Below, piece by piece: positions 29,342 through 45,974 of a DNA stretch of 64,000 nucleotides (position 1 is the stretch's first letter; the number at the start of each line of letters is the position of its first letter). The stretch is from Emcibacteraceae bacterium (GTDB lineage Bacteria; Pseudomonadota; Alphaproteobacteria; Sphingomonadales; Emcibacteraceae): positions 62,001 through 126,000 of the forward strand of contig JAJFIR010000036.1 in NCBI GenBank assembly GCA_021774795.1, in the 5' to 3' direction. The position numbers and the translations under genes are program-made. Under the pieces are notes generated by a model. The model was given only the letters and a program-made list of their open reading frames with translations, searched no databases and had not been told where the DNA came from.

Positions 29342-30385
29342 TTATTTTAGTTGGCTTAGACGAGAATCTTCCCAGAGTGTCGATAAAGCATGCCATAAAT
29401 TTCGTCTCGTAGCACTAAGATATAACGCGTTAGTAGAAAGGTCTCTGACAAGCAAATCATGCGCCGCACCAAGGGAATGATAGGGCATTTGAGGAAATAA
29501 ATGATGTGTCGCGTGGTATCTTAGCCCAACGGGGGCCCAAAAAGGCGAGAGAATCCCACCAGTAACATCAACGCTGTCGAGAAACTGGTCCGGGACTGAC
29601 ATTTTGACGTCACCGGGGTTTCTATAAGCATGGGCACCTAACGTGCGCAGGCTATTCATCGTAAATATAAGAAGTGTCACCAGATACCAAACGATGAACA
29701 CTTTAATTGGTATAATGCTAAAATAAATGAGAGCGGCTCCGGTCCATGCGTAAATTGTTGCGCAGATTTCTTGTAACCGCCAATGCTCACCGTCAAGCTT
29801 TGTCGGTCTCGGGCGACGATAACTTAAATCAATGGTCAATGATGATGCCCGTTCCCAAGCATAATGAGTAAGTTTCTTATTGAACCATGATAGCGGTGTC
29901 AGGATCAGAAAACGCGCGAGGAATAAAAAGGGCAATATGAGCGATAAAAAGACATAGGCAATTATTTTCCAACCTTCTTCTGCGCCGAAAGGAAGATATT
30001 CACCGTCTTCATTTGTGCCGTAGGTATCGCGCCTGTGGTGATCACTATGAACGCCGTGATAAGTAAACGAGGGGATGAGAAGAGGAAATCCACCGATGAT
30101 GTTCCAAAAGGCTATGAATAACTTAAACGTACCCTTTTTAAGATGAACAAGTTCGTGAATAAAAATAGCTACACGGTATAGCGAAAAAGCACTAACAATA
30201 AATGCCATTATATTTACGGTCGAGAAGGCAGGGGTTACTACTACCAGGTAAAACCCTCCCCACCCAAGTACGACGTTTAGGATAAGATCGGCCCAATAAA
30301 TATATGGTTTTGGCTTCATCAGGTGGGCAACCAGACCGCGTGCCTCGGCGAGCGGGAAGTCTTCGCTATTCTCTGGTGCGGGCAT
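29342..30385 (-). CDS. Fatty acid desaturase family membrane protein
   Basis: Oxygen-dependent di-iron membrane desaturase, about 347 residues from the ATG at 30385, which has GGAG nine nt upstream; an ATG 33 nt earlier lacks one. The three histidine boxes are present: H-E-L-V-H near residue 78, H-S-D-H-H near 112, and H-A-T-H-H-L-F-P-Q-M-P-Y-H near 292. Hydrophobic pairs near residues 35-75 and 165-260 form the membrane anchors. It introduces double bonds into acyl chains; regiospecificity is unknown. Its upstream region holds a perfect FNR-type box shared with the divergent carbonic anhydrase gene, so expression may respond to oxygen, which is also its substrate. Confidence 0.92.
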   Translation of the reverse strand: MPAPENSEDFPLAEARGLVAHLMKPKPYIYWADLILNVVLGWGGFYLVVVTPAFSTVNIMAFIVSAFSLYRVAIFIHELVHLKKGTFKLFIAFWNIIGGFPLLIPSFTYHGVHSDHHRRDTYGTNEDGEYLPFGAEEGWKIIAYVFLSLILPFLFLARFLILTPLSWFNKKLTHYAWERASSLTIDLSYRRPRPTKLDGEHWRLQEICATIYAWTGAALIYFSIIPIKVFIVWYLVTLLIFTMNSLRTLGAHAYRNPGDVKMSVPDQFLDSVDVTGGILSPFWAPVGLRYHATHHLFPQMPYHSLGAAHDLLVRDLSTNALYLSATRRNLWHALSTLWEDSRLSQLK

Positions 30386-30454
30386 ATACTCTTTCTCCAA
30401 CTCAAGCAAAAAAATCACAGGAAGTGATCTATAACATACTCTCTAAGTTTGTTT

Positions 30455-30468
30455 TTGATACAAATCAA
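30455..30468. promoter_or_regulatory. Perfect FNR-type box between desaturase and carbonic anhydrase genes
   Basis: TTGAT-ACAA-ATCAA matches all ten half-site positions of the FNR/DNR consensus. A -10-like TAAGAT at 30492-30497 would put the carbonic anhydrase transcript start near 30503, with the box centred at about -41.5, the classic activator position. A TATAGA on the other strand (30433-30428) would give a similar geometry for the desaturase. The site is seen directly; the regulation is inferred. Confidence 0.75.
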
Positions 30469-31672: not shown

Positions 31673-32386
31673 TTATGCTCCTCCTCTGCGGCGAACAATC
31701 TGGTATCCTGTCCGGAAAAGATACTTAACCGGTGCACTTAACATATGCACGAGCCGCGTAAACGGGAAAACAAGAAAGATCGTTAACCCAAGCACGAGAT
31801 GAGCTTTAAAGACCCAGGCTTCATTGATAATGAAATCCGCTGCGCCGCTTCTGAATGTCACAATATGTTGCGCCCAGTTAGCAAGCGCAACCATAGAAGT
31901 CCCGTCCATATGTTGGGCGGAATAGGGTATCGTGATTAATCCGAGGATCAATTGAACATACAGTATAACAAGCAAAGCAATATCGGAAAAGCGGCTGGTT
32001 GCGCGGATTCGTTTATCAAATAGGCGCCTGTAAAGAAGCATCGTAAGGCCAATGAAGCATAATGAGCCAAAGATACCGCCCGCGACCATCGCCAATAGCT
32101 GTTTCGTGCCAGCGGTCATAATCAGATGGTAAATCGGTTCCGGCGTTAACAGCCCGACAAGATGGCCAAAGAACAGCAATATAATGCCAATGTGAAAAAG
32201 GTTGCTGCCAACCCGCATTCCTTTAGATCGCAAAAGCTGACTTGAATCCGCTTTCCACGTATATTGGTCCCGGTCGTAGCGCATTATTGTCACACCGACC
32301 ATAATCATCACGGCAAGATAAGGATATATACCAAAGAAAAATTGGTGAACATATGATGTAAAAAGGTGTGTCATTTCAGGGGTCAT
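31673..32386 (-). CDS. narI: Respiratory nitrate reductase gamma subunit (cytochrome b)
   Basis: Membrane anchor of the NarGHI complex, 237 residues. It carries two b haems and oxidises quinol at the periplasmic side. Five hydrophobic segments are visible, with haem-ligand histidines in F-H-I-G (near 65), G-H-L-V-G (near 75), and in the fourth and fifth helices (K-A-H-L-V-L-G and R-L-V-H-M-L). The start overlaps the narJ stop as ATGA, indicating translational coupling. It is followed directly by the parvulin-like gene. Length and sequence are normal for the family. Confidence 0.96.
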   Translation of the reverse strand: MTPEMTHLFTSYVHQFFFGIYPYLAVMIMVGVTIMRYDRDQYTWKADSSQLLRSKGMRVGSNLFHIGIILLFFGHLVGLLTPEPIYHLIMTAGTKQLLAMVAGGIFGSLCFIGLTMLLYRRLFDKRIRATSRFSDIALLVILYVQLILGLITIPYSAQHMDGTSMVALANWAQHIVTFRSGAADFIINEAWVFKAHLVLGLTIFLVFPFTRLVHMLSAPVKYLFRTGYQIVRRRGGA

Positions 32387-33069
32387 TGGTTTACTCCTCT
32401 TGAAATTTGTACAGTATTTTTATCAGGATAAGTCGTCATATCGCAGCTGGTGCAATCAGAAGAATTATCAAATGCTTCTGCTTCCACCCATTCTTCATCC
32501 AGTTCATCCAGAGTTTGGATTTTAATCTTTTCTGCTTTTGCCTCTTCAATAACCGCGTCGCTGGGTTTAACTTTTGCCAGTGCTTCCATTGCTTCAAATA
32601 ATGTATGGTAAAGGCTATCCCTTTTTTTCAGTCTAACGCCGATAGTGGCTATGACATTAATAGGATCACCGATAAAATCGATCGCCTCCTCGATCGGGCA
32701 GACGGACAGATATTCAAGAAACAGCGGCAGATAATCCGGCAGTTCACCTTCAGTCATATAAAAGCCCTTCTCGGCATAGCTTTCTATTAAATTAACCATC
32801 GCCTGACCGCGGTCGCGGCTTTCACCGTGAATATGTTCAAACATATGAAGGCAGTGCTCTCTACCCCTGTCAAAGAGCTCAACATAATTCTCCTGTAGTT
32901 CATATAGGTCTGTGATTTTAAGATGTTCAATGAAGGAAAAGACTTTTTTTAGAGCATGTTTTTTTAATAACGCCTCTGATTTTAATACCGCTTCCAGCTC
33001 ACCTAAATTATCGATTAACGGCTGCTTTGGATAGGAAAGTAAAAGGCCTAATATTTTAAAGCTTCTCAT
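32383..33069 (-). CDS. narJ: Nitrate reductase molybdenum cofactor assembly chaperone NarJ
   Basis: Cytoplasmic TorD-family chaperone, 228 residues, that binds the NarG N-terminus and allows cofactor insertion before membrane attachment. Helical segments such as L-G-L-L-L-S-Y-P near residue 6 and H-M-F-E-H-I-H-G-E-S-R-D-R-G near residue 75 are diagnostic. L-P-D-Y-L-P-L-F-L-E-Y-L follows near residue 107. The C-terminal tail holds two cysteines in S-D-C-T-S-C. It overlaps both neighbours by four nt (ATGA with narH and with narI), so the narHJI block is tightly coupled. Confidence 0.95.
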   Translation of the reverse strand: MRSFKILGLLLSYPKQPLIDNLGELEAVLKSEALLKKHALKKVFSFIEHLKITDLYELQENYVELFDRGREHCLHMFEHIHGESRDRGQAMVNLIESYAEKGFYMTEGELPDYLPLFLEYLSVCPIEEAIDFIGDPINVIATIGVRLKKRDSLYHTLFEAMEALAKVKPSDAVIEEAKAEKIKIQTLDELDEEWVEAEAFDNSSDCTSCDMTTYPDKNTVQISRGVNQ

Positions 33070-34619
33070 GATGAACTCCCTATTTTTCCACTCATTGTGT
33101 TTTTATGGGTTGAAGCACCGAATAAATTGCTGCGACTTTGGCCGCCGGAACAACCATTTCCGAAGCTAAAGCCACAAGAAGATCTTGTTTCAAAAGCTAT
33201 CTCGTTATCAAACGGTGTTTCACCAGCATACTCACGGTGATTAGTAGGAATGACAAAACGGTCTTCATAATTAGCAAGCGCCATAATACGGTACATATCG
33301 TCAAGTGTTTCTTTATCAAGATCAACCGCGTCAAGAGTGGCTTGGTTATTGCTACCTTCCACTGTGACTTCGCGCATATATTCACGCATTGCCATCATAC
33401 GCTGCAAGGCAAATTCTACGGGTTTTTCCTTGCCTGCGGTTAGCATATTCGCCAAATATTTTACTGGTATCCTGAGATCCCCCGTATTTGGAATGACTCC
33501 ACTTCGTGATAGTTTGCCGTCCTCCATCGCACTTTGCACCGGGGAAAGGGGGGGAATATACCAGACCATCGGAAGTGTCCGGTATTCGGGATGAAGCGGG
33601 AACGCCACTTTCCAATCCATTGCCATTTTATAAACAGGACTATCTTGCGCTGCTTCCATCCAGCTATCGGGAACGCCATCTTTTTTGGCTTGTCTTATCA
33701 CGTCAGGATCATTCGGATCCAAGAATACATCCAGTTGAGCTTGATATAAATCTTTATCGTCCTCAACTGATGCGGCGGCTTCTATTCTGTCTGCATCATA
33801 AAGAAGTACGCCAAGATACCTTATGCGACCCACACATGTTTCTGAGCACACCGTCGGCTCACCCGCTTCAAGACGGGGATAACAAAGTGTGCATTTTTCA
33901 GATTTGCCGCTGCTCCAATTGAAATAAACTTTCTTATACGGGCAGCCACTAACGCACATACGCCAACCACGGCACTTATCCTGATCAATAAGGACAACAC
34001 CATCTTCTTCGCGCTTGTATATAGCACCGCTCGGGCAGGACGCAACACATGTCGGGTTTAAGCAATGTTCGCAAAGTCGCGGTAAATACATCATAAATGT
34101 ATTATCAAATTCGCCGTATATTTCTTTTTCGATGTCCTTAAAATTGTAATCTTTTGACCGTTTTGAAAATTCGCCACCAAGAATTTCTTCCCAGTTGGGA
34201 CCCCATTCGGCTTTTTCCATTTTCTCGCCTGTAATCGCTGAATGCATGCGCGCTGTCGGAACTGTTTTGACTTCTGGTGATTTTTGTAGCCTCTCATATT
34301 CAAAAGTAAACGGTTCGTAATAATCGTCTATTTCCGGCAAATCCGGATTTGCAAATATTTTTGAAAGAATTCGAAACTTGCCGCCAAGTTTCGGCTTTAT
34401 TTTACCATCACCTAATCGAACCCAACCGCCATTCCATTTGTTTTGATCTTCCCAATCACGGGGATATCCTATACCCGGTTTTGTTTCTACATTATTGAAC
34501 CATGCGTATTCTACACCTTCTCGGGAAGTCCATACATTTTTACAAGTTACCGAACATGTATGGCAGCCAATACATTTATCAAGATTAAGAACCATACCAA
34601 TTTGTGCACGTATCTTCAT
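33066..34619 (-). CDS. narH: Respiratory nitrate reductase beta subunit (iron-sulfur)
   Basis: Electron-transfer subunit, 517 residues, carrying three [4Fe-4S] and one [3Fe-4S] cluster between NarI and NarG. The first cysteine group, C-I-G-C-H-T-C-S-V-T-C, starts near residue 16. The second is C-E-H-C-L-N-P-T-C near residue 183. The third reads C-R-G-W-R-M-C, with tryptophan replacing one cysteine, the known cause of the 3Fe cluster in NarH. C-T-L-C and C-S-E-T-C supply the rest. The C-terminus ends in a glycine- and serine-rich stretch. Its ATG overlaps the narG stop as TAATG. Confidence 0.97.
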   Translation of the reverse strand: MKIRAQIGMVLNLDKCIGCHTCSVTCKNVWTSREGVEYAWFNNVETKPGIGYPRDWEDQNKWNGGWVRLGDGKIKPKLGGKFRILSKIFANPDLPEIDDYYEPFTFEYERLQKSPEVKTVPTARMHSAITGEKMEKAEWGPNWEEILGGEFSKRSKDYNFKDIEKEIYGEFDNTFMMYLPRLCEHCLNPTCVASCPSGAIYKREEDGVVLIDQDKCRGWRMCVSGCPYKKVYFNWSSGKSEKCTLCYPRLEAGEPTVCSETCVGRIRYLGVLLYDADRIEAAASVEDDKDLYQAQLDVFLDPNDPDVIRQAKKDGVPDSWMEAAQDSPVYKMAMDWKVAFPLHPEYRTLPMVWYIPPLSPVQSAMEDGKLSRSGVIPNTGDLRIPVKYLANMLTAGKEKPVEFALQRMMAMREYMREVTVEGSNNQATLDAVDLDKETLDDMYRIMALANYEDRFVIPTNHREYAGETPFDNEIAFETRSSCGFSFGNGCSGGQSRSNLFGASTHKNTMSGKIGSSS

Positions 34620-37600
34620 TATACTAACTCCTCATGGCTAATTAGACCTTTATCGTCGACGATTTGATTTGCCAGTGGCTCATCCATCCAGTCCACATTG
34701 TTCATTTTACGAACAAGGACGAATTCATCGCGGTTTGATCCGACGGTACCGTAGTAATTAAATCCGTATGAAAGCTGCGCGTATCCTCCGATCATATGTG
34801 TAGGCTTGACGGTGGCGCGGGTCACAGAGTTATGTATGCCGCCGCGTTTCCCTGTGGTTTCTGCGGCGGGTGTATTGATGATTTTTTCCTGCGCATGATA
34901 CATCATGCACATTCCATCCATTACCCGCTGGGAAACGACAACCCGGGCAGCAATTGCGCCGTTAGTATTATAAAATTCAACCCAGTCATTATCTTCCACG
35001 TCAATTTTTTTGGCATCATTTTCGCTGATCCAGATAATCGGTCCCCCGCGGCTCAATGTCAGCATAAGCAAGTTTTCCGAATAGGTGCTATGGATGCCCC
35101 ATTTTTGATGGGGTGTGATCCAGTTTAAGGCTATTTGTTTGTTGCCGTTATCAAACCTTTCCATTACTGGTTTAATGGTTTTGGTGTTGATCGGCGGTTT
35201 GTATACACAAAATCCTTCGCCAAAATCACGCATCCAACTATGATCTTGATAAAATTGCTGTCGACCAGTTAAAGTGCGCCAGGGAATAAGTTCATGAACG
35301 TTTGTGTAACCGGCGTTATAACTGACATGCTCATCTTCAAGTCCGCTCCATGTTGGCGAAGAGATAATTTTTCTGGGTTGCGCTTGAATATCGCGAAAAC
35401 GAATTTTCTCATCTGCTTTTGGCAGTGCTAGATGTTGATGTTTTCGACCTGTGAATTTTTCCAGCGCGGCCCATGCTTTTACGGCGACCTGACCATTTGT
35501 TTCGGGTGCCAAGGATAGAACCACTTCTGCGGCATCAATATCTGTTTCTATGCGCGGCATGCCTTTTGATACGCCGTCTTCTGTGACAATATGGTTTAAC
35601 GCACCCAGGAATTTATATTCCGTTTCAGTATTCCACGAAATACCCTTGCCTCCATTACCAACTTTGGTCATCAGGGGTCCTAAGGAAGTAAATTTTTTAT
35701 AGGTGTCGGGATAGTTTCTGACTACCTCAACATAATTGGGCATTGTTTTGCCGGGGATGGCGTCTACCTCACCTTTATGCCATTCTTTGACGTCGGTCGC
35801 CTGAGCGAGCTCGCCCGGCGTATCGTGCAGTATTGGCAAAGCGACTACATCGGTTTCCTCTCCTAAATGGCCAACACAAAGTTCTGAGAACTTTTTCGCA
35901 AGCCCTTTATATATATCCCAATCACTGCGGCTTTCCCATGCCGGATCAACGGCGCGACTTAACGGATGAATAAACGGGTGCATATCGGAAGTATTTAAAT
36001 CGTTTTTCTCATACCAGGTTGCAGAAGGAAGAACGATATCTGAATAAACGCAAGTCGTAGACATTCTGAAATCCAGGGTCACCACAAGATCTAATTTACC
36101 TTCCGGTGCATCATCAACCCATTCGACTTCTGATGGTTTGGCTTCTCCGTATGCTCCCAGATCTTCACCCATCACGCCATTTTGTGTGCCGAGTAAATAT
36201 TTGAGCATATATTCGTGACCTTTACCGCTGGAGCCAAGGATATTTGAGCGCCAGATAAACATATTTCGGGGAAAATTCTTTGGGTTGTCTGGTGCTTCGC
36301 ACGACATGCGCAAAGATTTCTCCTTCAGTCGCGCTGAAATATATTCTGCGGATGATTTGCCAGCGTCTCTCGCTTCTTTGGAAAGTTGAAGCGGGTTTTC
36401 CTCAAGCTGTGGTGCGGAAGGCAACCAGCCCATTCGTTCCGAACGTACGTTGCAATCAATAAGGGAATAATCCTGCCATTTCTTCTTATCCGCGAGCGGC
36501 GATAGTATCTCGTCAATACCCAATTTTTCATATCGCCACTGACTTGAATGACTATAAAAGAAAGAAGTACTGTTCATGTGGCGCGGCGGCCTGTTCCAGT
36601 CAAGGGCAAACGCGAGCGGTTGCCAGCCAGTTTGCGGGCGAAGCTTTTCCTGTCCCACATAATGGGCCCAGCCGCCCCCCGATTTACCAATGCAGCCGCA
36701 CATTACAAGCATATTAATGATGCCGCGATAGTTCATATCCATATGGTACCAGTGGTTGATAGCAGCTCCCAGAATAACCATAGAACGCCCGCGTGTTTTA
36801 TCGGCATTGTCGGCGAATTCGCGGGCAATTGTGATAACTTTTTCACGGGATACGCCGGTGACCTTTTCTTGCCATGCCGGTGTGTAAGGGGCGTCATCAT
36901 CGAAATTTTTTGCCAGATGTTCACCGCCAAGGCCCTGATCGACGCCGTAGTTGGCGACCATCAGGTCAAAAACGGTCGCGACAAGAATTTCACCATCTTT
37001 TGTCTTGATTTTCCGGGCAGGGATTTTGTGCTTCAGTATACTGCTATGATCGGTAGCATTAAAAATTGGTTGGTCGTTCTCTATGTTGCCAAAATACGGG
37101 AAACAGACATCGACGACATCGTCATGTTTTTTAACAAATGATTTCTCGGGCCATGCTTCTTTGCCATTAAGCAGATTTTTTGGCTCCAAGTTCCAATTCT
37201 TTTCCTCTCCCCATCGTGATCCAATGGTTCCACCGGGAACAATCAGTTCGTTATTATTTGCATCGATAGCCAAGGTTTTCCACTCAGGGTTATTATCTTG
37301 ACCTAAATTATCTTCGAAATCAGAAGCGCGTAACGTTCGCCCGGCGACCAGGCCACCTTCTGTTTCTTCAAGCCTTACGAGAAAAGGCATGTCTGAATAA
37401 AGACGACAATATTCATCGAAATAGTCACTTTTACCGTCAACATGGAATTCTTTCAAAATGACGTGACCAAATGCCATCGCTAGTGCTGAATCGGTTCCTT
37501 GCCTCGGGTTGAGCCACATATCACTAAGTTTGGCAACTTCACTATAATCCGGTGTAATGGCGACTGTTTTTGTGCCTTTATACCGAACTTCGGTGAAGAA

Positions 37601-38401
37601 ATGGGCATCCGGTGTTCTGGTTTGCGGAACGTTGGATCCCCATGCCATAATATAGGAGGAATTATACCAATCGGCACTTTCAGGCACATCGGTTTGTTCA
37701 CCCCAGACTTGCGGTGACGCTGGCGGCAGATCGCAGTACCAGTCGTAAAAACTCATACATGTGCCGCCAATTAATGAAAGATAGCGGCTACCTGCCGCGT
37801 ACGAAACCATCGACATAGCAGGAATGGGGGAGAAGCCAATGATGCGGTCAGGGCCATATTTCTTTGCCGTATAAATATTAGCTGCCGCTATAATTTCATT
37901 GACCTCATCCCACTCAACCCGGACAAATCCACCAAGACCCCGAGCTGATTTATAAATTTTTGCTTTATCTTGATTTTCAACAATATTTTCCCAAGCGACA
38001 ACAGAGTCCCGGTAAACATTTCGCCTCTCGCGCCACAATTTAAGCAAATGGCTTCGGATCATGGGATATTTGACGCGCGCTGAACTATAAAGATACCAAC
38101 TGTAGCTCGCCCCTCTGGCACAACCGCGAGGTTCGTGGTTTGGAAGATCAGGCCTTGTTCGGGGATAATCCGTTTGTTGAGTCTCCCATGTGACAAGGCC
38201 TCCTTTTACGTAAATTTTCCAGCTACAGGAACCTGTGCAGTTCACGCCATGTGTTGAGCGAACGATCTTATCATGAGCCCACCGACCACGGTATGCTTTT
38301 TCCCACGAACGATTTTCCGCCGTCGTTATGCCGTGCCGACCGGAAAAGGGTTCTGGCTTTTCTTGTGTGAAGAAAGTCAATTTATCTATAAAGTGGCTCA
38401 T
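34619..38401 (-). CDS. narG: Respiratory nitrate reductase alpha subunit (molybdopterin)
   Basis: Catalytic subunit of membrane-bound nitrate reductase, about 1260 residues. It reduces nitrate to nitrite at a bis-MGD molybdenum site on the cytoplasmic side. The FS0 cluster ligands appear as H-G-V-N-C-T-G-S-C near residue 49 and R-G-C-A-R-G near residue 90. The molybdenum-ligand aspartate lies in F-Y-D-W-Y-C-D-L-P near residue 220. I start it at M-S-H-F-I-D-K-L (38401), which matches the known NarG N-terminus; the in-frame extension upstream overlaps narK2 and is rejected. It follows narK2 after 44 nt and overlaps narH by one nt. Confidence 0.98.
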   Translation of the reverse strand: MSHFIDKLTFFTQEKPEPFSGRHGITTAENRSWEKAYRGRWAHDKIVRSTHGVNCTGSCSWKIYVKGGLVTWETQQTDYPRTRPDLPNHEPRGCARGASYSWYLYSSARVKYPMIRSHLLKLWRERRNVYRDSVVAWENIVENQDKAKIYKSARGLGGFVRVEWDEVNEIIAAANIYTAKKYGPDRIIGFSPIPAMSMVSYAAGSRYLSLIGGTCMSFYDWYCDLPPASPQVWGEQTDVPESADWYNSSYIMAWGSNVPQTRTPDAHFFTEVRYKGTKTVAITPDYSEVAKLSDMWLNPRQGTDSALAMAFGHVILKEFHVDGKSDYFDEYCRLYSDMPFLVRLEETEGGLVAGRTLRASDFEDNLGQDNNPEWKTLAIDANNNELIVPGGTIGSRWGEEKNWNLEPKNLLNGKEAWPEKSFVKKHDDVVDVCFPYFGNIENDQPIFNATDHSSILKHKIPARKIKTKDGEILVATVFDLMVANYGVDQGLGGEHLAKNFDDDAPYTPAWQEKVTGVSREKVITIAREFADNADKTRGRSMVILGAAINHWYHMDMNYRGIINMLVMCGCIGKSGGGWAHYVGQEKLRPQTGWQPLAFALDWNRPPRHMNSTSFFYSHSSQWRYEKLGIDEILSPLADKKKWQDYSLIDCNVRSERMGWLPSAPQLEENPLQLSKEARDAGKSSAEYISARLKEKSLRMSCEAPDNPKNFPRNMFIWRSNILGSSGKGHEYMLKYLLGTQNGVMGEDLGAYGEAKPSEVEWVDDAPEGKLDLVVTLDFRMSTTCVYSDIVLPSATWYEKNDLNTSDMHPFIHPLSRAVDPAWESRSDWDIYKGLAKKFSELCVGHLGEETDVVALPILHDTPGELAQATDVKEWHKGEVDAIPGKTMPNYVEVVRNYPDTYKKFTSLGPLMTKVGNGGKGISWNTETEYKFLGALNHIVTEDGVSKGMPRIETDIDAAEVVLSLAPETNGQVAVKAWAALEKFTGRKHQHLALPKADEKIRFRDIQAQPRKIISSPTWSGLEDEHVSYNAGYTNVHELIPWRTLTGRQQFYQDHSWMRDFGEGFCVYKPPINTKTIKPVMERFDNGNKQIALNWITPHQKWGIHSTYSENLLMLTLSRGGPIIWISENDAKKIDVEDNDWVEFYNTNGAIAARVVVSQRVMDGMCMMYHAQEKIINTPAAETTGKRGGIHNSVTRATVKPTHMIGGYAQLSYGFNYYGTVGSNRDEFVLVRKMNNVDWMDEPLANQIVDDKGLISHEELV

Positions 38402-38445: not shown

Positions 38446-40062
38446 TTATGGGTTTTTGACATAGGCACCTGGGCGCAAATAGAACCACCAGTTAATAAGC
38501 ACGCAAAGGCCGTAGAAGGCGGCAAACCCATAAAGCGCGAATTCCGGTGTCGCGGCTTTAATTTCCTCACCAAAAACTTGTGGAATGATGAAAGCGCCGT
38601 AGGCGGCCACCGCGGACGTCCAGCCAAGAACCGGACCCGCTTGCTCTCTGTCAAATACGACTGCGATTGTACGGAAAGTAGATCCGTTGCCGATACCGGT
38701 TGCCGCAAACAGAACAAGAAACAGCACCATGAAAGGCATAAAATATTGTTCAGGGGCCGCGGACACGTAAGCCATTTTCATGAAGTATGCGACACCGAGG
38801 GCACTGGCGATCATGATAATTGATACATATTGTGTTACACGGGCACCGCCCAACTTATCGGCAATCATACCGCCCACTGGCCGGATAAGGGCACCGATAA
38901 ACGGTCCGGTCCAGGCATACATTAGCGCGCTTGGTCCATTAGTATTGACGGTGTCGTGTGTCATAATGCTGTCGACGACAAGATGCTGAAAGCCGAAAAT
39001 TACTTTTATAGAAAGCCCGAAAGCGGCTGAGAAACCAATAAACGAACCAAATGTCATTGTATAAATAAAGGACATTGCCCAGGTATGCTTATTATTAAAT
39101 ATCTGGTATTGACGTTTAAGATTTTCACCAAGTTCACCGGGCATCATTTTAAGGGCGTAAACAGTTAAGATGATCACAATGGGAAGAACGATCCACTTAC
39201 TCAATAATATACCCGAAGTAGGAAGACCGTTGTTTAGGCTGGGCATCATAAGCCAGTACCCTACACCGGCAGTTATAAAACCAATGAGCAGCATGACCGT
39301 AATTTTAATAAATACAGAAATTGGATTTCCGACATCCGGGGATACGTGATCATCAACAATATTGTTCAATCCGAACCAGCCGGCGAAAGCAAGCGGGATA
39401 AGCATCAGCAACCATAACCAAGCAGCATTATGGATATAAGTGTCTGTGCCGGCCGGGATTTTACCAATTAATGTTCCTGATGAATTTATTAGCTCCATCG
39501 GATCACCCCCGAAAATTCCGAATGTCATAAACAAGGGAACCAAGATCTGCATTGTTGTTACACCAAAATTACCCAGCCCAGCATTAAGACCTAATGACAT
39601 TCCTTGCACTTTCTTTGGAAAGAAGAAGCTGATGTTTGACATTGAAGACGCGAAGTTACCGCCTCCTAAGCCAGACAAAAATGCGAGTAACTGAAACTGC
39701 CAAAGCGGGGTGTTTATATCCTGAAGGGCATAACCCGATAGCACGGCAGGCACCATCAACAAAGCGGTGGTAAAAAATATAGTATTTCGCCCCCCGCCGA
39801 GCCGGATAAAAAAGGTACTCGGAATTCTAAGGGTTGCGCCGGTTAAGCCTGCTATTGCAGCCAAGGTAAAAAGCTCCGACTTTGCTATCGGGAACCCCAA
39901 GTTTAACATCTGGATGGTGATAATGCCCCAATAGAGCCAGACTGCGAAGCCACAAAGCAAGCTTGGGATAGAAATCCATAAGTTACGGTTGGCGACGGCT
40001 TTACCCGTTGACGCCCATTGTACCTCGTCCTCTGGATTCCAATTTTTAAGATCTTGTGCCAT
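38446..40062 (-). CDS. narK2: Nitrate/nitrite transporter, NarK2 type
   Basis: Major facilitator superfamily permease, 538 residues, 12 or more hydrophobic segments. The N-terminus (W-N-P-E-D-E...F/W-A-x-x-G-K-x-V-A-N-R-N-L-W-I-S-I-P) is that of type II NarK, generally regarded as nitrate/nitrite antiporters. The conserved arginine of helix 2 is in T-L-R-I-P-S. Nitrate-signature glycine-rich motifs occur at G-G-G-N-F-A-S-S-M and N-A-G-L-G-N-F-G near residues 130-165. It lies 14 nt downstream of narK1 and upstream of narG, the K1-K2-GHJI order known from Pseudomonas. In Paracoccus the two transporters are fused into one protein; here they are separate genes. Confidence 0.93.
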   Translation of the reverse strand: MAQDLKNWNPEDEVQWASTGKAVANRNLWISIPSLLCGFAVWLYWGIITIQMLNLGFPIAKSELFTLAAIAGLTGATLRIPSTFFIRLGGGRNTIFFTTALLMVPAVLSGYALQDINTPLWQFQLLAFLSGLGGGNFASSMSNISFFFPKKVQGMSLGLNAGLGNFGVTTMQILVPLFMTFGIFGGDPMELINSSGTLIGKIPAGTDTYIHNAAWLWLLMLIPLAFAGWFGLNNIVDDHVSPDVGNPISVFIKITVMLLIGFITAGVGYWLMMPSLNNGLPTSGILLSKWIVLPIVIILTVYALKMMPGELGENLKRQYQIFNNKHTWAMSFIYTMTFGSFIGFSAAFGLSIKVIFGFQHLVVDSIMTHDTVNTNGPSALMYAWTGPFIGALIRPVGGMIADKLGGARVTQYVSIIMIASALGVAYFMKMAYVSAAPEQYFMPFMVLFLVLFAATGIGNGSTFRTIAVVFDREQAGPVLGWTSAVAAYGAFIIPQVFGEEIKAATPEFALYGFAAFYGLCVLINWWFYLRPGAYVKNP

Positions 40063-40076
40063 GAGTTAGTCCTTTT

Positions 40077-41468
40077 TTAAGTTTCTTGTTTAATTTGCGT
40101 AAGTACAGCTTCGCTCTTCTCACGAATTTCTGCTGTTTTGTTTTGTAATTCTTCGCTTTGCTTTATCAGTGCTTCGAGCTCGGGCAGATATCGCGGCCCG
40201 CGAAGTTCAGGAGATGATTTCCTATCCATTCGAACGATGGACACGTGCATCCAGAGAAGGGCTATGCCGATCAAGACGGTAAGCAGCATAAAACAGCTGG
40301 TCCAAATGCCGATCAAGTCGTTCATAATGCCGAAAGTAATGGGTAAGAAAAAGCCGCCCAACCCACCAATTAGCCCGACGATACCACCTACCGAGCCAAC
40401 ATGGTTTGGGTAATATACGGGGATGTGTTTATAAACAGCGGCTTTGCCAAGCGACATAAAAAAGCCGAGAACGACTGTGAGGGATACAAACACCCATAAA
40501 GGAATTGTAATGTTGAAAGCAATTGGTCCTTCAATTCCGGCGATAGTGTAATCGGTGGCCGGGTAAGACATTACAAATGTGCACGCGACACAAACTATAA
40601 ATGTCCAATACATCACACGGCGAGCGCCAAAAATATCTGACATCCATCCGCCTAAAGCCCTAAAAATACTTCCTGGCAAGGCATAAGCGGCAGCCAACAT
40701 ACCGGCAGTTCCAAGCTCGAGGCCGTATGCGCCCACATAATAACGCGGCAACCAAAGTGCCAAGGCGACAAAAGCACCAAATACAAAAAAGTAATATAAT
40801 GAAAACCGCCAAACCTGGAGATTCTTAAGGGGTTCCATTTGTTCGATGAATGTGGCGTGTTTAATGCCTTCTGCCTTGCGCCGCCTTAAAGCAGGATCAT
40901 CTTTTGTAACAACAAAATAAAGGATGCCCGTTATAAGTAATATAATGGCGTAAATCTGGGCGACACCCTGCCACGCACCTCCCACCGCGACAAGCAAAAT
41001 TGGCGCGCCAAAGTTTGTGATCGCTGCACCGACATTTCCCATTCCAAAAATACCAAGTGCCGTGCCTTGTCTTTCGGAAGGGTACCATGTTGATACATAG
41101 GCGATACCGACGGCAAAACTCCCACCCGCTAATCCAAGTCCGAGGGCAGAGAGCAGGAACATTGGATATGTGGTTACTTTGGTAAGCAGAAATGTAGCCA
41201 GTGCAGTTATAATCATCTGCAAGCTGAAAACCAGCCTACCACCGTATTGATCGGTCCAGACGCCAAGAAATACGCGGCTCAAAGAGCCTGTTAATATGGG
41301 GGTAGCGACAAGCAGACCGAACTCTGTGTCGTTTAAGCCCAGCTCTGTTTTAATTTTTAAGCCGATAATTGAAAATATTGTCCAAACGGCAAAACAAACA
41401 GTGAATGCAAGGGTGCTTGATGTTAACGCGCGTTTCTGTTCTCCTGATGTGACATTAAGATTATTCAT
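40077..41468 (-). CDS. narK1: Nitrate transporter, NarK1 type
   Basis: Major facilitator superfamily permease, about 463 residues, type I NarK, generally regarded as a nitrate/proton symporter. Visible marks are F-S-I-I-G-L-K-I near residue 35, an arginine-bearing S-L-S-R-V-F-L-G near 63, and the nitrate signatures G-L-A-G-G-S-F-A-V-G and F-G-M-G-N-V-G-A-A near 110 and 145. The soluble C-terminal tail is charged and coiled-coil-like (E-A-L-I-K-Q-S-E-E-L). The ATG at 41468 is preferred, with AAGG eight nt upstream; a GTG at 41477 is possible. First gene of the nar operon, facing the NIT-Crp regulator gene. Confidence 0.92.
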   Translation of the reverse strand: MNNLNVTSGEQKRALTSSTLAFTVCFAVWTIFSIIGLKIKTELGLNDTEFGLLVATPILTGSLSRVFLGVWTDQYGGRLVFSLQMIITALATFLLTKVTTYPMFLLSALGLGLAGGSFAVGIAYVSTWYPSERQGTALGIFGMGNVGAAITNFGAPILLVAVGGAWQGVAQIYAIILLITGILYFVVTKDDPALRRRKAEGIKHATFIEQMEPLKNLQVWRFSLYYFFVFGAFVALALWLPRYYVGAYGLELGTAGMLAAAYALPGSIFRALGGWMSDIFGARRVMYWTFIVCVACTFVMSYPATDYTIAGIEGPIAFNITIPLWVFVSLTVVLGFFMSLGKAAVYKHIPVYYPNHVGSVGGIVGLIGGLGGFFLPITFGIMNDLIGIWTSCFMLLTVLIGIALLWMHVSIVRMDRKSSPELRGPRYLPELEALIKQSEELQNKTAEIREKSEAVLTQIKQET

Positions 41469-41542
41469 TTCCTTCACCTTTCCTCAAAAATGAAATATTA
41501 ATTTGAGCTGAGGATAAGGTGGCATGCTCGCTAAAAAATAAT

Positions 41543-41556
41543 TTGATCGAGGTCAA
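41543..41556. promoter_or_regulatory. FNR-type box 1 in the nar divergent promoter region
   Basis: TTGAT-CGAG-GTCAA matches nine of ten half-site positions. Its centre is about 81 nt upstream of the narK1 ATG. An FNR-like activator at -41.5 would give a transcript start near 41508, although the -10 there is poor. Confidence 0.65.
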
Positions 41557-41573: not shown

Positions 41574-41587
41574 CTGATTTGGGTCAA
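41574..41587. promoter_or_regulatory. FNR-type box 2 in the nar divergent promoter region
   Basis: CTGAT-TTGG-GTCAA matches eight of ten half-site positions. It is centred 31 bp (about three helical turns) from box 1, on the same face of the DNA. A TACATT at 41610-41615 could be the -10 for the regulator gene, putting this box near -41.5 for it and suggesting autoregulation. Confidence 0.5.
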
Positions 41588-41689: not shown

Positions 41690-43282
41690 ATGAGGGAATT
41701 GTTAGTTCCACTTGCACGCATTATGCATGAAGTGCAGAAGGAGCGCGGTTGCGTTATTCTGTTTTTGTGCAGTAATTGTGCCATGGATAATGACGGCATA
41801 CATCAGAAGTTTTTAGAAACAAACCATGCAGTGGAAGCGCTTACGGTTAAATTGCCGGGTTGGCGCAAAAATGGTCGATTAGGCTTGAATTTATGGGACA
41901 AAGTCGAGCATTTAATTTCAGATATAAATGAGCTATCAAAGCATCGCGATTTGGTGTTAGAGAAAGAAGTCAGCGCGACTACTAGTATCTCGTTATATAG
42001 TCATAAAATAATTGGTCCTATTATCGATTTGATGATTGATGTTGCTTTGAAGGACCCACAACATAATTCTGCAAATGTCAGCGCTTTTTCGAACTTTCTT
42101 TATCTTAAAGAACGTATCGGGCGTGAACGTGCGCTTGGTGTGCGAGGGCTCGTATCGGATGCCTTCAGCAACGACGAATTTATCGAAAATTATAGGTTTC
42201 TTATTGCGGAACAAGATAGCTATAAAGATACCTTTATGGCTTTAGCCAATGAGGCACAGAGGTTATGTTATGACCGTTATATGGATGATTATTCTGTCAA
42301 GCGAATTGATGAAATGCATAAACTACTAAGAGAGGATAAAATGGGCGAAGGATATGCTATTTCTGCTACGGATTGGTATGAATTAGCAACCCAGAAAATT
42401 GATCTCATGCATAAAGTAGAAATAGATCTTGTTGGCACTCTGATAAAAGACGAAACTGAAAAGCCGACAGATGATAATAGTGAAAATGAAGACAGACTTT
42501 ACGTGGGAATGAATAGTTTCTCAAAGAAGCAGCAGGACTTTATTCAAACACTACCGCTTTTTAATGGGCTATCTGATTGGACGCTTGCGGATTTATTTAG
42601 AAACGCTTCCATCGGTAGTTATAAAAAAGGAAAATTACTGTTTCTTGAAGGAGAGCTGCCAAACAGACTATATATTATCTTGGAGGGCTGGGTTAAGCTT
42701 TATAAGGGAAATTCCAGCGGCGATGAAACCATTGTTCAAATGCTAACCAGTGGTGATATGATCGCTGAATCAGCTGTGTTTTTAAATGCACCATTTCCGA
42801 TCAGTGCCCAAGTGGCAAAAAATGCCCAAATATTGACGCTGCCTTCGCCAATTATTCGGGAAAATATAAAAACAAACAACGAACTGGCGATAAATGTCCT
42901 TACGGCTATGTCGGTGCATTCCCAACTGCTTATTCAAGGATTAGAAAATATCAGGCTAAAGTCAGCCACGGAGCGAGTAGGATGGTTTTTGCTCAAATTA
43001 CTTCTTGAACAAGGGCGGGTACCGGACATGGTCGAGCTTCCCTATGATAAGTCATTGATTGCTTCTTATCTTGATATGAAGCCGGAGACTTTTTCAAGGA
43101 CACTGAAAAAGTTCAAACAAAAAGGCTTCGAAATCCGTAAAGACGCCGTAATATTACCAAAAGTCAAGGCCCTATGCGGCTTTTGTGATTCTGATGTTGC
43201 GCCTGCTTGTTCAATGCACGGTACACCGGACTGTCCAAATCCAGATTGCATTTCAAGTGAAGAAATAGTTCTTTATGATTAG
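41690..43282 (+). CDS. NIT nitrate-sensing domain fused to a Crp/FNR-type regulator, with Cys-rich tail
   Basis: A 530-residue cytoplasmic regulator. Residues about 5-250 resemble the NIT nitrate/nitrite-sensing domain: Q-K-E-R-G at 16-20, then K-E-R-I-G-R-E-R-A-L-G at 140-150, and helices rich in Q, F and A. Residues about 285-410 are a cyclic-nucleotide-binding-like beta roll; residues about 425-485 are a Crp-type winged helix. The recognition helix P-E-T-F-S-R keeps Glu466, Ser469 and Arg470, the residues FNR uses to read TTGAT. FNR's N-terminal cluster cysteines are absent. The tail has cysteines 496, 499, 507, 515 and 520. The gene is divergent from narK1-narK2-narGHJI and is its likely nitrate-responsive regulator. 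Confidence 0.85.
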   Translation: MRELLVPLARIMHEVQKERGCVILFLCSNCAMDNDGIHQKFLETNHAVEALTVKLPGWRKNGRLGLNLWDKVEHLISDINELSKHRDLVLEKEVSATTSISLYSHKIIGPIIDLMIDVALKDPQHNSANVSAFSNFLYLKERIGRERALGVRGLVSDAFSNDEFIENYRFLIAEQDSYKDTFMALANEAQRLCYDRYMDDYSVKRIDEMHKLLREDKMGEGYAISATDWYELATQKIDLMHKVEIDLVGTLIKDETEKPTDDNSENEDRLYVGMNSFSKKQQDFIQTLPLFNGLSDWTLADLFRNASIGSYKKGKLLFLEGELPNRLYIILEGWVKLYKGNSSGDETIVQMLTSGDMIAESAVFLNAPFPISAQVAKNAQILTLPSPIIRENIKTNNELAINVLTAMSVHSQLLIQGLENIRLKSATERVGWFLLKLLLEQGRVPDMVELPYDKSLIASYLDMKPETFSRTLKKFKQKGFEIRKDAVILPKVKALCGFCDSDVAPACSMHGTPDCPNPDCISSEEIVLYD

Positions 43283-43331: not shown

Positions 43332-44585
43332 CTAGAATCTTGTGGCAACCTGAAACCAAAACTTGGAAGTATCTGAGCTCCATGTGTCAGCGTTATAATT
43401 GGCATATTTTAAAAGAATGGTGAATTGTTTAAATATCTTCTTGCTAACAGAAACATCAATTTCCGACCCATAATCAATGTCGCCAAAATCTGATTTAAAC
43501 TTGTGATAAATCACTGTGATATTTGTGCCGTCTATTTCTGTGCCGGTGTCGGCTACGGCATAAGAGGCTTGACCATAAAAATCTCTTAAACCATTGGCGG
43601 GGGTGTTCAGAAACTTGTCAGCCCAGCCATTAAATTTATGCAGCGTCGCGAGTGGCGTTGTGAAGGAAGTCGCGCCTTCATCGCTACCCAAAGTTTCAAT
43701 GCCCGCCTTTATCGTAAATCCGTTAACTGCAACGCCGGCTTCAACATTGTAGTAATCTGCGGAATAGCTAAAAGGATTTGCCTTATAATCTGTTTGATTT
43801 GCATATTCGGCTGAATATAAAACTTTAGTACCCTCAGCTATATCTTGACTTCCGCTGAGGCGTGCGCCAAATGTTTTACTGTTCAGGGCTTTTACACCTA
43901 TCGCGTCCAGATCAATCAATAGTCCGTATGCTTCAATTGTGAAACCTTTGATGCCTTTGTAACTGGCATTAACAATGTTAGTTTTGGTTTTTAAATCCCC
44001 GGACGGATGGTCATTTCCAAATATCCGATTTACATTCCACACATAACTATAGACAACTGTCAGATCGTCTATTGAATTGTTAATAATGGCAGCCGCATCA
44101 AATGTTTGATCATTCTGACGCCAGCCGACAGTTCCAACAAATCGTTGATTACCAAGGTTCATTGCTTGCCGACCCGCGGCAATAGTTGTCTTTTCAATTC
44201 CGGTGAATGCTAAAAAGGCTTGATTAACCTCCGTATGATTGGCATCGATAATGGCGGGATAAGCGGTTTTACCATTAATGCCATTATTATAATCTCCACC
44301 AAAAATTTCCGCAGAATGTTCAAACTCTATCGTACCGGAAAATCCTTTATAGGCGGCCGTTTTATAACCCAACTTGGAACGCAATGTCGCCGCTGTTCCA
44401 TTAAAAAGTTTAGAGTCGTCAGTGACATGCTCAACTCTAAATCTTTCATCCAGGTAAGCGGTTCCGCTGGAAATCGCATCGATGATGGTTTCGGTTTCTT
44501 GGGCACTGGCGCCAACAGTTGTAGCATAAGTCAATGCGGTGGAGGCCACCAAGAAAAGGTTAATGGGTACAAATAAGGTCTTCAT
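43332..44585 (-). CDS. Outer membrane porin, alginate-export-like family, FNR-box-controlled
   Basis: Predicted outer membrane beta-barrel, 417 residues. The signal peptide is residues 1-29 (ending G-A-S-A-Q). The segment G-R-Q-A-M-N-L-G-N-Q-R-F-V-G near residue 133 and the following W-R-Q-N-D-Q-T-F-D are typical of the alginate-export-type barrel family. Many alternating aromatic strands follow, and the protein ends in a terminal phenylalanine as a BAM signal. I start it at M-K-T-L-F (44585), with AGGAGGA seven nt upstream. A perfect FNR-type box lies about 70 nt upstream. Next to the nar island it may admit nitrate or another anaerobic substrate; specificity is unknown. Confidence 0.85.
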   Translation of the reverse strand: MKTLFVPINLFLVASTALTYATTVGASAQETETIIDAISSGTAYLDERFRVEHVTDDSKLFNGTAATLRSKLGYKTAAYKGFSGTIEFEHSAEIFGGDYNNGINGKTAYPAIIDANHTEVNQAFLAFTGIEKTTIAAGRQAMNLGNQRFVGTVGWRQNDQTFDAAAIINNSIDDLTVVYSYVWNVNRIFGNDHPSGDLKTKTNIVNASYKGIKGFTIEAYGLLIDLDAIGVKALNSKTFGARLSGSQDIAEGTKVLYSAEYANQTDYKANPFSYSADYYNVEAGVAVNGFTIKAGIETLGSDEGATSFTTPLATLHKFNGWADKFLNTPANGLRDFYGQASYAVADTGTEIDGTNITVIYHKFKSDFGDIDYGSEIDVSVSKKIFKQFTILLKYANYNADTWSSDTSKFWFQVATRF

Positions 44586-44636
44586 TTTTAATCCTCCTAA
44601 CATAGTTGTAGACACGTATATGCATATGCCTTTATC

Positions 44637-44675
44637 GAATTAGGAAATTGATGAGGATCAAGAATTTGCTAATTC
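44637..44675. promoter_or_regulatory. Perfect FNR-type box nested in an inverted repeat, porin promoter
   Basis: TTGAT-GAGG-ATCAA at 44648-44661 matches all ten half-site positions. It is centred about 70 nt upstream of the porin ATG, so a transcript start at +41.5 from its centre would fall near 44613, leaving a short leader with a strong ribosome binding site. The box lies within a wider inverted repeat, GAATTAG-x-AAATT / AATTT-x-CTAATTC. Confidence 0.75.
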
Positions 44676-44699: not shown

Positions 44700-45974
44700 T
44701 TAGGTAAAGGAAGGGTTTATGAGGCTGTCAAATTCCTGACAAGTCGGACAAATTGGAACATAGCGATGGAAGACACTTTGACACGCATTACATTCCCAAG
44801 GAAAATCATCTTTAAGCTTTTCAGATAATTCAATGTATTTTTGTGCTGCGACATTATCATCCTTCTGCTCACGTTCAAGTTGTGCCAACAGTTGATAAGT
44901 TGTTTTTGTTGGCTTTCCTGACGCAATGTTTAGATCAAGAGCGTGCCTCGCTTCCGGCCAATTGCCGACATCTATTGCGGCGCGCGCGAGCAGGTGTTGA
45001 CGTTCAGTAGATTCAGCTGCCTTCTCTGAAGCCGTCTTTACCCGCCTGTAGATTTCGCGGGCACTTTCAAGCGGGTATAAATCAATTAACATATCAGCTA
45101 TTTCACTGTTTGGGCTTCTTTTCCAGATAGCATTCAATATCTTTTCAGCAGACTTCTGATCACCCTGCTCAAGATATAGGCGTGCAGATAAAATAGCTGC
45201 CGGTGCGAATTTGGCGTCATTCTTTAACGCCGATTTAGTTAAGGCCTGGGCTTCATTTTTTTTGCCAGCGGCTTTTTCTTCAAGAGCAAGACAATATTCG
45301 ACAACGGCTATCAAATGCCCTTTTAGTGACGGGCTGATCTTTCCTTTGCCTTTTAATGCCTCCCGTGCATCGTACCAGTGCCCAAGGCGCGCCAGTAACA
45401 AAAACCGGACTTCGACCAAATTTTTGTTGTCAGGGTGTTCACTTAACATTATTTCGGCAATGGGAAGTGCTTCTTCCCAGGATTTAAGCTCAATAAGTTG
45501 ATCCAGTTCTTGCTTTAGAGCCCACGGCGCACTTTGCGGGGCCTTTTTTAGGGCTTCGAAGTAAGGATTGTCAATTTTACCGGATTGTTTTGCTGCGCTC
45601 GCCAGAAGACGCAAGACATTATGATCCTCTCCCAGCTTGGATTTCGCCCTCAACCCCATCTTGGTGGCCTGATCATGATCACCAAGCGCAAGGGCTGACC
45701 ATGCCTGATCAAGGTCTATCCCTCCCTTTCGCCTCTTCGCTGCAAGGCGTTTAGGACTGTCCAAATAAGAAGAAATATTGAGCCATTTTAACAGTCTTAG
45801 GAAAGCCCATATCGCCGCAGTATATAAAATTATAAGAAAGATAAACACCGCAATTGTTGAACGAACCTCCCAACCTTGCCACGTTATTATTATTTGTCCC
45901 GGATTCGACGCAACCCATGCAATAACTAAAGAAATAAAAAGTGCGGTAATTATATAAAATGTTAGCCGGATCAT
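44700..45974 (-). CDS. hemY: HemY family membrane TPR protein
   Basis: Inner membrane protein, 424 residues, of the proteobacterial HemY family encoded beside hemC and hemD. It is distinct from the Bacillus coproporphyrinogen oxidase also named HemY. Two N-terminal membrane helices lie near residues 4-22 and 41-63. The rest is a run of TPR-like helical hairpins. The C-terminus carries a rubredoxin-like pair of cysteine knuckles, C-N-A-C and C-P-T-C (about residues 395-414), like LapB. Its start overlaps the mic60 stop as ATGA. A scaffold role in haem or membrane biogenesis is presumed, not established. Confidence 0.87.
   Translation of the reverse strand: MIRLTFYIITALFISLVIAWVASNPGQIIITWQGWEVRSTIAVFIFLIILYTAAIWAFLRLLKWLNISSYLDSPKRLAAKRRKGGIDLDQAWSALALGDHDQATKMGLRAKSKLGEDHNVLRLLASAAKQSGKIDNPYFEALKKAPQSAPWALKQELDQLIELKSWEEALPIAEIMLSEHPDNKNLVEVRFLLLARLGHWYDAREALKGKGKISPSLKGHLIAVVEYCLALEEKAAGKKNEAQALTKSALKNDAKFAPAAILSARLYLEQGDQKSAEKILNAIWKRSPNSEIADMLIDLYPLESAREIYRRVKTASEKAAESTERQHLLARAAIDVGNWPEARHALDLNIASGKPTKTTYQLLAQLEREQKDDNVAAQKYIELSEKLKDDFPWECNACQSVFHRYVPICPTCQEFDSLINPSFT

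Follow-up and report, generated by a model that had tools for sequence, protein, structure and literature searches.

The 64,000-nucleotide stretch analysed here (hereafter the window: positions 62,001 to 126,000 of the forward strand of contig JAJFIR010000036.1, assembly GCA_021774795.1, from a marine Emcibacteraceae bacterium) carries a nar locus and, beside it, a gene whose product joins a NIT domain to a Crp/FNR-type DNA-binding module. This NIT-Crp regulator gene lies at 41690-43282 on the forward strand, begins with ATG and encodes 530 amino acids plus a stop. Divergent from it, on the reverse strand, lie narK1 (40077-41477), the first gene of the operon, identified by MFS_1 (expectation value, E, 1.6e-52) and synteny; narK2 (38446-40062), identified by synteny and an MFS_1 match below the family cut-off (E 2.7e-5); narG (34619-38398; PF00384, PF01568 and PF14710); and the open reading frames (ORFs) of narH, narJ and narI (31673-34619), which were named by order and homology, with homologues in the same order.

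The domains of the protein, all encoded on the forward strand, were identified by family searches. The NIT domain (residues 11-251; 41720-42442) matches PF08376 at E 2.8e-34, with 120 bits against a cut-off of 24.9 and over profile positions 2-238 of 239. When residues 1-271 were compared with PDB sequences, the sole significant match was NasR (4akk, E 8.6e-7), and the only other row had an E of 0.28. A cNMP-binding-type beta roll (residues 310-394; 42617-42871; PF00027, E 3e-17) and a Crp-type winged helix (residues 428-496; 42971-43177; PF13545, HTH_Crp_2, E 1.1e-9) follow. An earlier note on this DNA, made from the sequence alone, had proposed this NIT domain, roll and winged helix, the divergence from narK1-narK2-narGHJI, and an FNR-like E-x-x-S-R in the recognition helix; each is borne out. 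The helix reads K464-P-E466-T-F-S469-R470, with E, S and R invariant in 43 of 43 aligned rows. In FNR, this triad reads TTGAT.

The 43-row alignment excludes three loci with undetermined residues (L038, L041 and L053), two truncated where their contigs stop (L047 and L067), and fragments; the first copy of L026 is included but ends two residues before its stop. All 43 aligned homologues contain NIT, cNMP_binding and HTH_Crp_2 (Pfam), and since these are 33-77% identical to the window protein, the architecture is more than chance. No ANTAR, kinase or chemotaxis output was found in the window protein, and ANTAR was absent even with Pfam matches as weak as E 1 admitted. No membrane-helix-like stretch was seen by eye (no predictor was applied), so cytoplasmic sensing is expected. 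CRP needs an Arg at the roll position corresponding to alignment columns 370-372 in order to bind cAMP; Arg is not among the five commonest residues there, and cAMP binding by the roll was rejected. By sequence, the closest relatives of the Crp domain are DNR of Pseudomonas aeruginosa (3dkw), 3fx3 and FtrB-like Crp proteins, with the NCBIfam FtrB match below its cut-off.

An AlphaFold2 model built from 43 sequences (the window protein and homologues) has a mean predicted local distance difference test score (pLDDT) of 82.9, with residues 256-275 below 50. In a VIA re-alignment of 999 chains, NasR came first (4akk_B, Z 26.6 over 285 residues, root-mean-square deviation 4.3, model range 1-379), followed by holo-FNR of A. 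fischeri (mutant 9qly, Z 23.6, 227 residues, root-mean-square deviation 3.0; wild-type 5e44, Z 23.4). Two points count against the structural match to NasR: the best 50 Foldseek rows are all Crp/FNR-type chains and do not include it, and in VIA, the only place where it ranks top, the model range is wider than the NIT domain, the model being that of the whole protein. By the features tested, the window protein belongs to both the NIT and the Crp/FNR families. No NIT-Crp fusion was found described in literature searches aimed at it, and the earlier note likewise knew of no characterised one; the texts found report NIT with ANTAR, kinase or chemoreceptor outputs (PMC8014003, PMC8199190, PMC7496416, PMC1592074, PMC6956133).

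One half of the NasR-type nitrate site is the QxxRG motif at residues 16-20 (41735-41749), with Q16 and R19 present in 43 of 43 rows; the other is the GxxRALG motif at residues 144-150 (42119-42139), with G144 and R147 in 42 of 43. They align with QCERG and GQERALG of NasR, such that Q16-K-E-R19 stands opposite Q-C-E-R and G144-R-E-R147 opposite G-Q-E-R of 4akk. The motifs that the earlier note had picked out, Q-K-E-R-G and R-E-R-A-L-G, are found at Q16-K-E-R19-G20 and R145-E-R147-A-L-G150. PMC8199190 gives GxxR as the motif that binds nitrate and states that both arginines are retained in NasR, where glutamine takes the place of one glycine. The window protein shows this NasR pattern, with both arginines and glutamine for one glycine. 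NasR residues E175 and R176 are given as predicted pocket residues in PMC7496416; E146-R147 of the window protein are most likely their counterpart, judging from the alignment. The conservation of a fold does not fix its ligand, and the NIT domain might sense something other than nitrate or nitrite, or only aid dimerisation. This is very unlikely: both arginine motifs are complete in 42 of 43 rows, and the exception, L027 (CxxF for GxxR), has lost its nar neighbours. The window's genome encodes one NIT protein.

One scan of named genomes gave 54 loci; L022-L068 contain 46 full-length copies of NIT-Crp, L026 having two. Several contigs occur both as a named and as an unnamed locus (L004 and L022, for instance), so the two locus scans are not independent samples. 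Forty of the 46 copies diverge from a narK-like gene, and for 36 of these the contig also shows at least part of narG; in L030, L040, L047 and L064 the contig stops after narK. In L034, a fragment of narG stands directly upstream, at the contig end, the contigs of L046 and L050 are too short to judge, and three copies lie elsewhere, away from narK (L025, the second copy of L026, and L027). It weighs against the nar linkage that the neighbouring gene shares no more than 23-28% identity with narK1 at seven of the 40 loci.

The hosts are metagenome-assembled genomes (MAGs) labelled Kordiimonadaceae, Emcibacteraceae/Emcibacter, Robiginitomaculum, Hyphomicrobiales, Alcanivoracaceae, Lysobacterales and others, together with one named strain, Exilibacterium tricleocarpae R142 (L043), and the narK linkage spans alpha- and gammaproteobacteria. 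The fusion is rare: besides the window's genome, it was found in one of 384 genomes of a class sample (a partial copy at a contig edge; E up to 1e-60), and in the phylum sample in two of 397 (E up to 1e-55). At the loci of these two, L107 and L108, the regulator is flanked by a narK-like gene and, on the opposite side, by a moaA-like gene (molybdenum cofactor), with MoaA confirmed in L107. A plasmid search for NIT-Crp was negative, with 80% of the query covered nowhere. On the tree, the NIT label needs four changes, and L108 falls outside some of the rows that lack NIT; on these sequences, the fusion is likely, though not proven, to have arisen once. The second copy of L026 (10001-11566) and the copy of L025 (654-2219) adjoin hemN, a usp-like gene and ccoNOP, with hemN and ccoNOP confirmed in L025. 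Such surroundings are a typical place for low-oxygen regulators.

Co-occurrence with narG was examined in 32 genomes of the family. NIT-Crp and narG are both present in 23, NIT-Crp alone in one (67% complete), narG alone in one and neither in seven, two of which are only 53% and 69% complete. In G012, counted among the 23, the narG match is to a fragment at a contig end and falls short of the Pfam cut-off. Fisher's test gives p 1.8e-5, not corrected for kinship among the 32 genomes. A second, weak match to the NarG N-terminal region was seen in G023 (G023:C64:12805-12903, E 1.3e-4), with the main narG about 14.5 kb away.

Where nar genes no longer occupy the interval from the carbonic anhydrase gene to that at 44700-45974, decay of the regulator is seen. 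In L027, 14 of the 37 NIT columns whose conservation in the remaining rows is 90% or higher deviate, against 0-5 in the other 42 rows, while only four of 68 Crp columns and none of five tail columns do so. In its sister L044, NIT is gone and the reading frame starts at the end of a carbonic anhydrase-like gene; G021 retains a 75-codon C-terminal remnant of NIT-Crp, and narG was not found in this genome. The genomes of L027 (G026) and L044 (G028) each contain a further nar locus at a different place, whose regulator lacks NIT. A counter-example to this pattern is L025, which keeps an intact NIT (two of 35 columns deviate) beside hemN, the usp-like gene and ccoNOP rather than nar; its genome, G029, also has this further type of nar locus (L078).

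An FNR-type box, TTGATCGAGGTCAA, lies between narK1 and the regulator at 41543-41556 and matches TTGAYN4RTCAA exactly. A second, weaker match, CTGATTTGGGTCAA, with eight of ten consensus letters, lies at 41574-41587; the earlier note had singled out the DNA that spans these two sites. The exact TTGAY-N4-RTCAA pattern occurs between regulator and narK in 40 of 41 homologous regions, the window's included, where shuffles lead one to expect 0.07 of 41; it occurs in 82 of 7921 other windows taken from the same loci. Most of the homologous regions have one strong site only. The box is also found in five NIT-less regulator-narK regions (L076, L077, L078, L101 and L106) and in L108. It is missing in exact form from L057, which has a one-letter variant instead, and from L107, where start codons are uncertain, and these two cases speak against a universal site.

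The window's genome carries 82 boxes, against 13 for a control pattern, and an FnrL-like protein; a FnrL-like match was obtained in 20 of 20 genomes tested. The box is therefore a general FNR box, which alone cannot tell which protein uses it, and given the FnrL-like proteins it may serve FnrL as well or instead. The possibility that only FnrL uses the box and that NIT-Crp acts elsewhere is supported by these numbers. We regard it as quite unlikely, since ExxSR is invariant in 43 of 43 rows and the narK linkage extends across alpha- and gammaproteobacteria. In 32 of 41 regions, the distance between the centre of the best box and the end of the narK match is 67-97 bp; these distances are approximate, as match ends are not start codons. 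The box sits between two divergent genes and divergent repressors are common, which would fit a repressor that leaves the narK1 box on nitrate binding, with FnrL as the activator. This arrangement is unlikely, though, because the distances are about those of an activator box with a short leader, and because FNR, DNR and NarR are known activators. As far as these sequences can tell, it is quite probable that NIT-Crp activates rather than represses.

The earlier note had also proposed that the protein would replace NarXL or NarR. No NarX/NarQ-type sensor kinase turned up in the window's genome, with the E. coli control detected, which agrees with the NarXL part of the proposal. At E up to 0.01, the sole PilJ-domain protein of this genome is a 419-amino acid PilJ+HAMP protein (L109, 1351-2610) in which no kinase or chemotaxis output was found. 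The sequence evidence makes it very probable that NIT-Crp is a dedicated nitrate-responsive regulator of nar.

The reading in the earlier note is incomplete in one respect: it missed an invariant Cys4 tail at the C-terminus. Behind the winged helix, residues 496-515 (43175-43234, forward strand) read C496-x2-C499-D-x6-C507-x7-C515. The motif CX2CX7CX7-8C is present in 43 of 43 rows, with x8 before the last Cys in four, and its four Cys are the only Cys columns kept in at least 30 of the 43; D500 lies within the motif. For comparison, C21 in the NIT domain is Cys in 22 of 43. The motif also ends the NIT-Crp proteins of L099, L107 and L108, which are outside the alignment. The N-terminal CX2CX5-7C cluster motif of FNR and FnrL has no conserved counterpart in the 43 NIT-Crp rows, and for this reason NIT-Crp is not filed as FNR. 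No earlier description of the tail was found, but this is a weak negative, as the literature search aimed at it returned nothing at all.

The tail is not confined to proteins with NIT. It is present in 12 of 14 hand-picked NIT-less relatives and in none of five outgroup Crp proteins; because the 14 were chosen from hits reaching into the tail, plus L044, L069, L070 and L120, the figure is no frequency estimate. The NIT-less protein of L119, outside this set, also has it. On the tree, tail carriers are separated from the outgroup with 100/99 support, the tree having long branches that meet and an outgroup made up of five of seven plasmid-borne Crp relatives. None of these seven (five records; Azospirillum, Rhizobium and Ruegeria) has a Cys4 tail, which sets the tail carriers apart from the DNR/FtrB-like group. 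Two observations on the tail weigh against the two-input reading set out below. L069 and L120 depart from the tail spacing or miss one Cys (in L120, one tail Cys is replaced), and most Crp relatives of the class sample lack the tail: 87 of 376 genomes match the NIT-less profile (E up to 1e-30), of which only 13 reach profile position 240 or beyond, the tails of two, G102 and G137, being unread.

Among the NIT-less tail carriers, L101, L106, L115 and L119 adjoin narK-like and moeA-like genes (MoeA confirmed in L106, the rest named by eye), L120 adjoins a narK-like and a moeB-like gene (named by eye), L076-L078 adjoin a fused narK1-narK2 ORF and narG (likewise named by eye), and L105 adjoins ubiV (anaerobic ubiquinone synthesis; UbiV confirmed). 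No narK, moe or ubi-type link was seen within about 1.5 kb on each side of L102, L103 and L104. One Robiginitomaculum MAG, NORP13, combines a NIT-Crp linked to nar (L057) with a separate relative that lacks NIT and whose Cys tail is altered (L069, 10001-10744).

In the 20 genomes with an FnrL-like match, the FnrL-like proteins have CX2CX7C near the N-terminus in 19 cases (the twentieth is not readable), and the first three tail Cys share this spacing. According to PMC3520743, the Fnr proteins of B. subtilis and B. cereus have Cys in a C-terminal extension, three of which are cluster ligands in B. subtilis. Because of these two parallels, a C-terminal [4Fe-4S] cluster is the best guess. Against this, Cys4 can equally bind zinc, and iron-sulphur rather than zinc is only narrowly favoured from the sequences. 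The conserved tail suggests, by its sequence, a second, FNR-like input.

The principal alternative is a regulator of nitrate response only, in which the tail holds zinc or forms a structural knuckle and a separate FnrL senses oxygen, acting at identical or overlapping boxes, a division of labour like that of FnrP and NarR in Paracoccus. It finds support in the FnrL-like match in every one of the 20 genomes and in the precedent of NarR, which is described without a [4Fe-4S] cluster in PMC8139620, where nar is induced via FnrP and NarR. In addition, the window protein has a fifth tail Cys (CPNPDC, C520), kept in 19 of 43 rows, which recalls zinc ribbons. A PyrI_C-type zinc ribbon as such was rejected, given an E of 0.051, below the cut-off, and the limited conservation of C520; the rejection does not extend to zinc itself. 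The CX2CX7C spacing within the tail, equal to that of the cluster motif in FnrL-like proteins from the same genomes, argues in the other direction, as does the placement of second copies beside hemN and ccoNOP and of a NIT-less relative beside ubiV, all low-oxygen genes. We consider the nitrate-only arrangement a real possibility, short of a probable one.

The anatomy of the protein, its conservation, the nar linkage and the FNR-type box are established by sequence and model. It is likely that NIT-Crp is a soluble, dedicated one-component nar regulator with two inputs, nitrate through NIT and, probably, oxygen or redox state through a C-terminal iron-sulphur cluster, the latter by inference. 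In such a scheme, nitrate would enter the cell through NarK, and nitrate (or nitrite) would be held between Q16xxR19 and G144xxR147, relieving autoinhibition as proposed for NasR. The freed Crp/FNR-type dimer could then bind TTGAY-N4-RTCAA upstream of narK1 and of a porin-like gene described below. The CX2CX7CX7C tail behind the winged helix would carry an oxygen- or redox-labile [4Fe-4S] cluster and permit DNA binding only without oxygen, and the dimer at the narK1 box would activate narK1K2GHJI. The net effect would be a nitrate AND no-oxygen gate in one chain, which is the joint job of FNR and NarXL, or of FnrP and NarR.

In its fullest form, it is tempting to see here one polypeptide that joins cytoplasmic nitrate sensing by NIT to oxygen or redox sensing by a relocated, C-terminal FNR-type [4Fe-4S] cluster, acting as an AND gate on nar and so uniting two signals that other bacteria divide among two or three proteins. 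It would belong to a Crp clade with CX2CX7CX7C tails, for which no description was found, in which some NIT-less members stand beside nar or molybdenum-cofactor genes and NIT tends to decay where the adjoining nar genes are lost. This whole is put forward tentatively, at slightly less than an even chance.

Comparison with known systems places the window protein as NasR-like on the input side and FNR/NarR-like on the output side. NasR of Klebsiella oxytoca, a NIT-ANTAR antiterminator, is likewise a one-component nitrate sensor and its asymmetric QxxR/GxxR pocket matches that of the window NIT, while its output is an RNA-binding ANTAR domain without a Crp domain. The target of NasR is nitrate assimilation. 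According to PMC7496416, NasR is a dimer that is autoinhibited until ligand binds, and by analogy this is a plausible model for the NIT part. FNR, FnrL and FnrP share with the window protein the Crp fold, the ExxSR helix, the TTGAT-type box and the CX2CX7C motif; unlike the window protein, they have the Cys motif at the N-terminus and no NIT. The window protein is thus neither FNR, for want of a conserved N-terminal cluster motif, nor NasR, for want of ANTAR.

We know of no NIT domain in the B. subtilis or B. cereus Fnr, nor of a NIT domain or a Cys tail in NarR. The two Bacillus proteins resemble the window protein in having their [4Fe-4S] ligands in a C-terminal extension and differ in the C(x4)C(x2)C(x3)C spacing and in aspartate as the fourth ligand, as described in PMC3520743. 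NarR of Paracoccus is the nearest functional analogue, by description and not by sequence: PMC8139620 and PMC4771820 present it as an alphaproteobacterial nar activator of the Crp/FNR family that responds to nitrate or nitrite, and according to the former it replaces NarXL in alphaproteobacteria. As described, NarR lacks a [4Fe-4S] cluster; the window protein is linked to nar and carries a Cys4 tail.

The NIT-Crp fusion wires a NasR-type pocket, which is structurally known, straight to DNA. Because the pocket is known from NasR, nitrate sensing by an alphaproteobacterial nar regulator becomes testable with point mutants. To our knowledge, no clear mechanism has been offered for how NarR senses nitrate. 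If the tail holds an iron-sulphur cluster, the protein would represent a new place for the cluster among Gram-negative FNR relatives and a compact two-input gate useful for nitrate/oxygen biosensors.

Downstream of the regulator, an outer-membrane porin-like gene (Alginate_exp; PF13372, E 5.3e-7) lies at 43332-44615 on the reverse strand and adjoins the regulator in five related loci. Upstream of it, at 44648-44661, is the box TTGATGAGGATCAA, of the same TTGAY-N4-RTCAA pattern. A box is present upstream of the porin in eight of eight regions read, of which two (L076 and L077) are NIT-less loci with the porin named by eye. The porin-like gene is probably in the same regulon and may serve nitrate entry.

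A second type of nar locus exists in the same genus (L076, 5157-8075 and 8224-8961; L077; L078), where an ORF of 973-985 amino acids resembling a narK1-narK2 fusion is divergent from a NIT-less Crp regulator with the Cys4 tail, and the box TTGATTCAAATCAA lies between them. In the window, a further FNR-type box, TTGATACAAATCAA (30455-30468), lies between the carbonic anhydrase gene (30539, forward strand) and a fatty acid desaturase gene (29342-30418, reverse strand), and a similar box is found between the carbonic anhydrase and fatty acid desaturase genes in L027 and L044.

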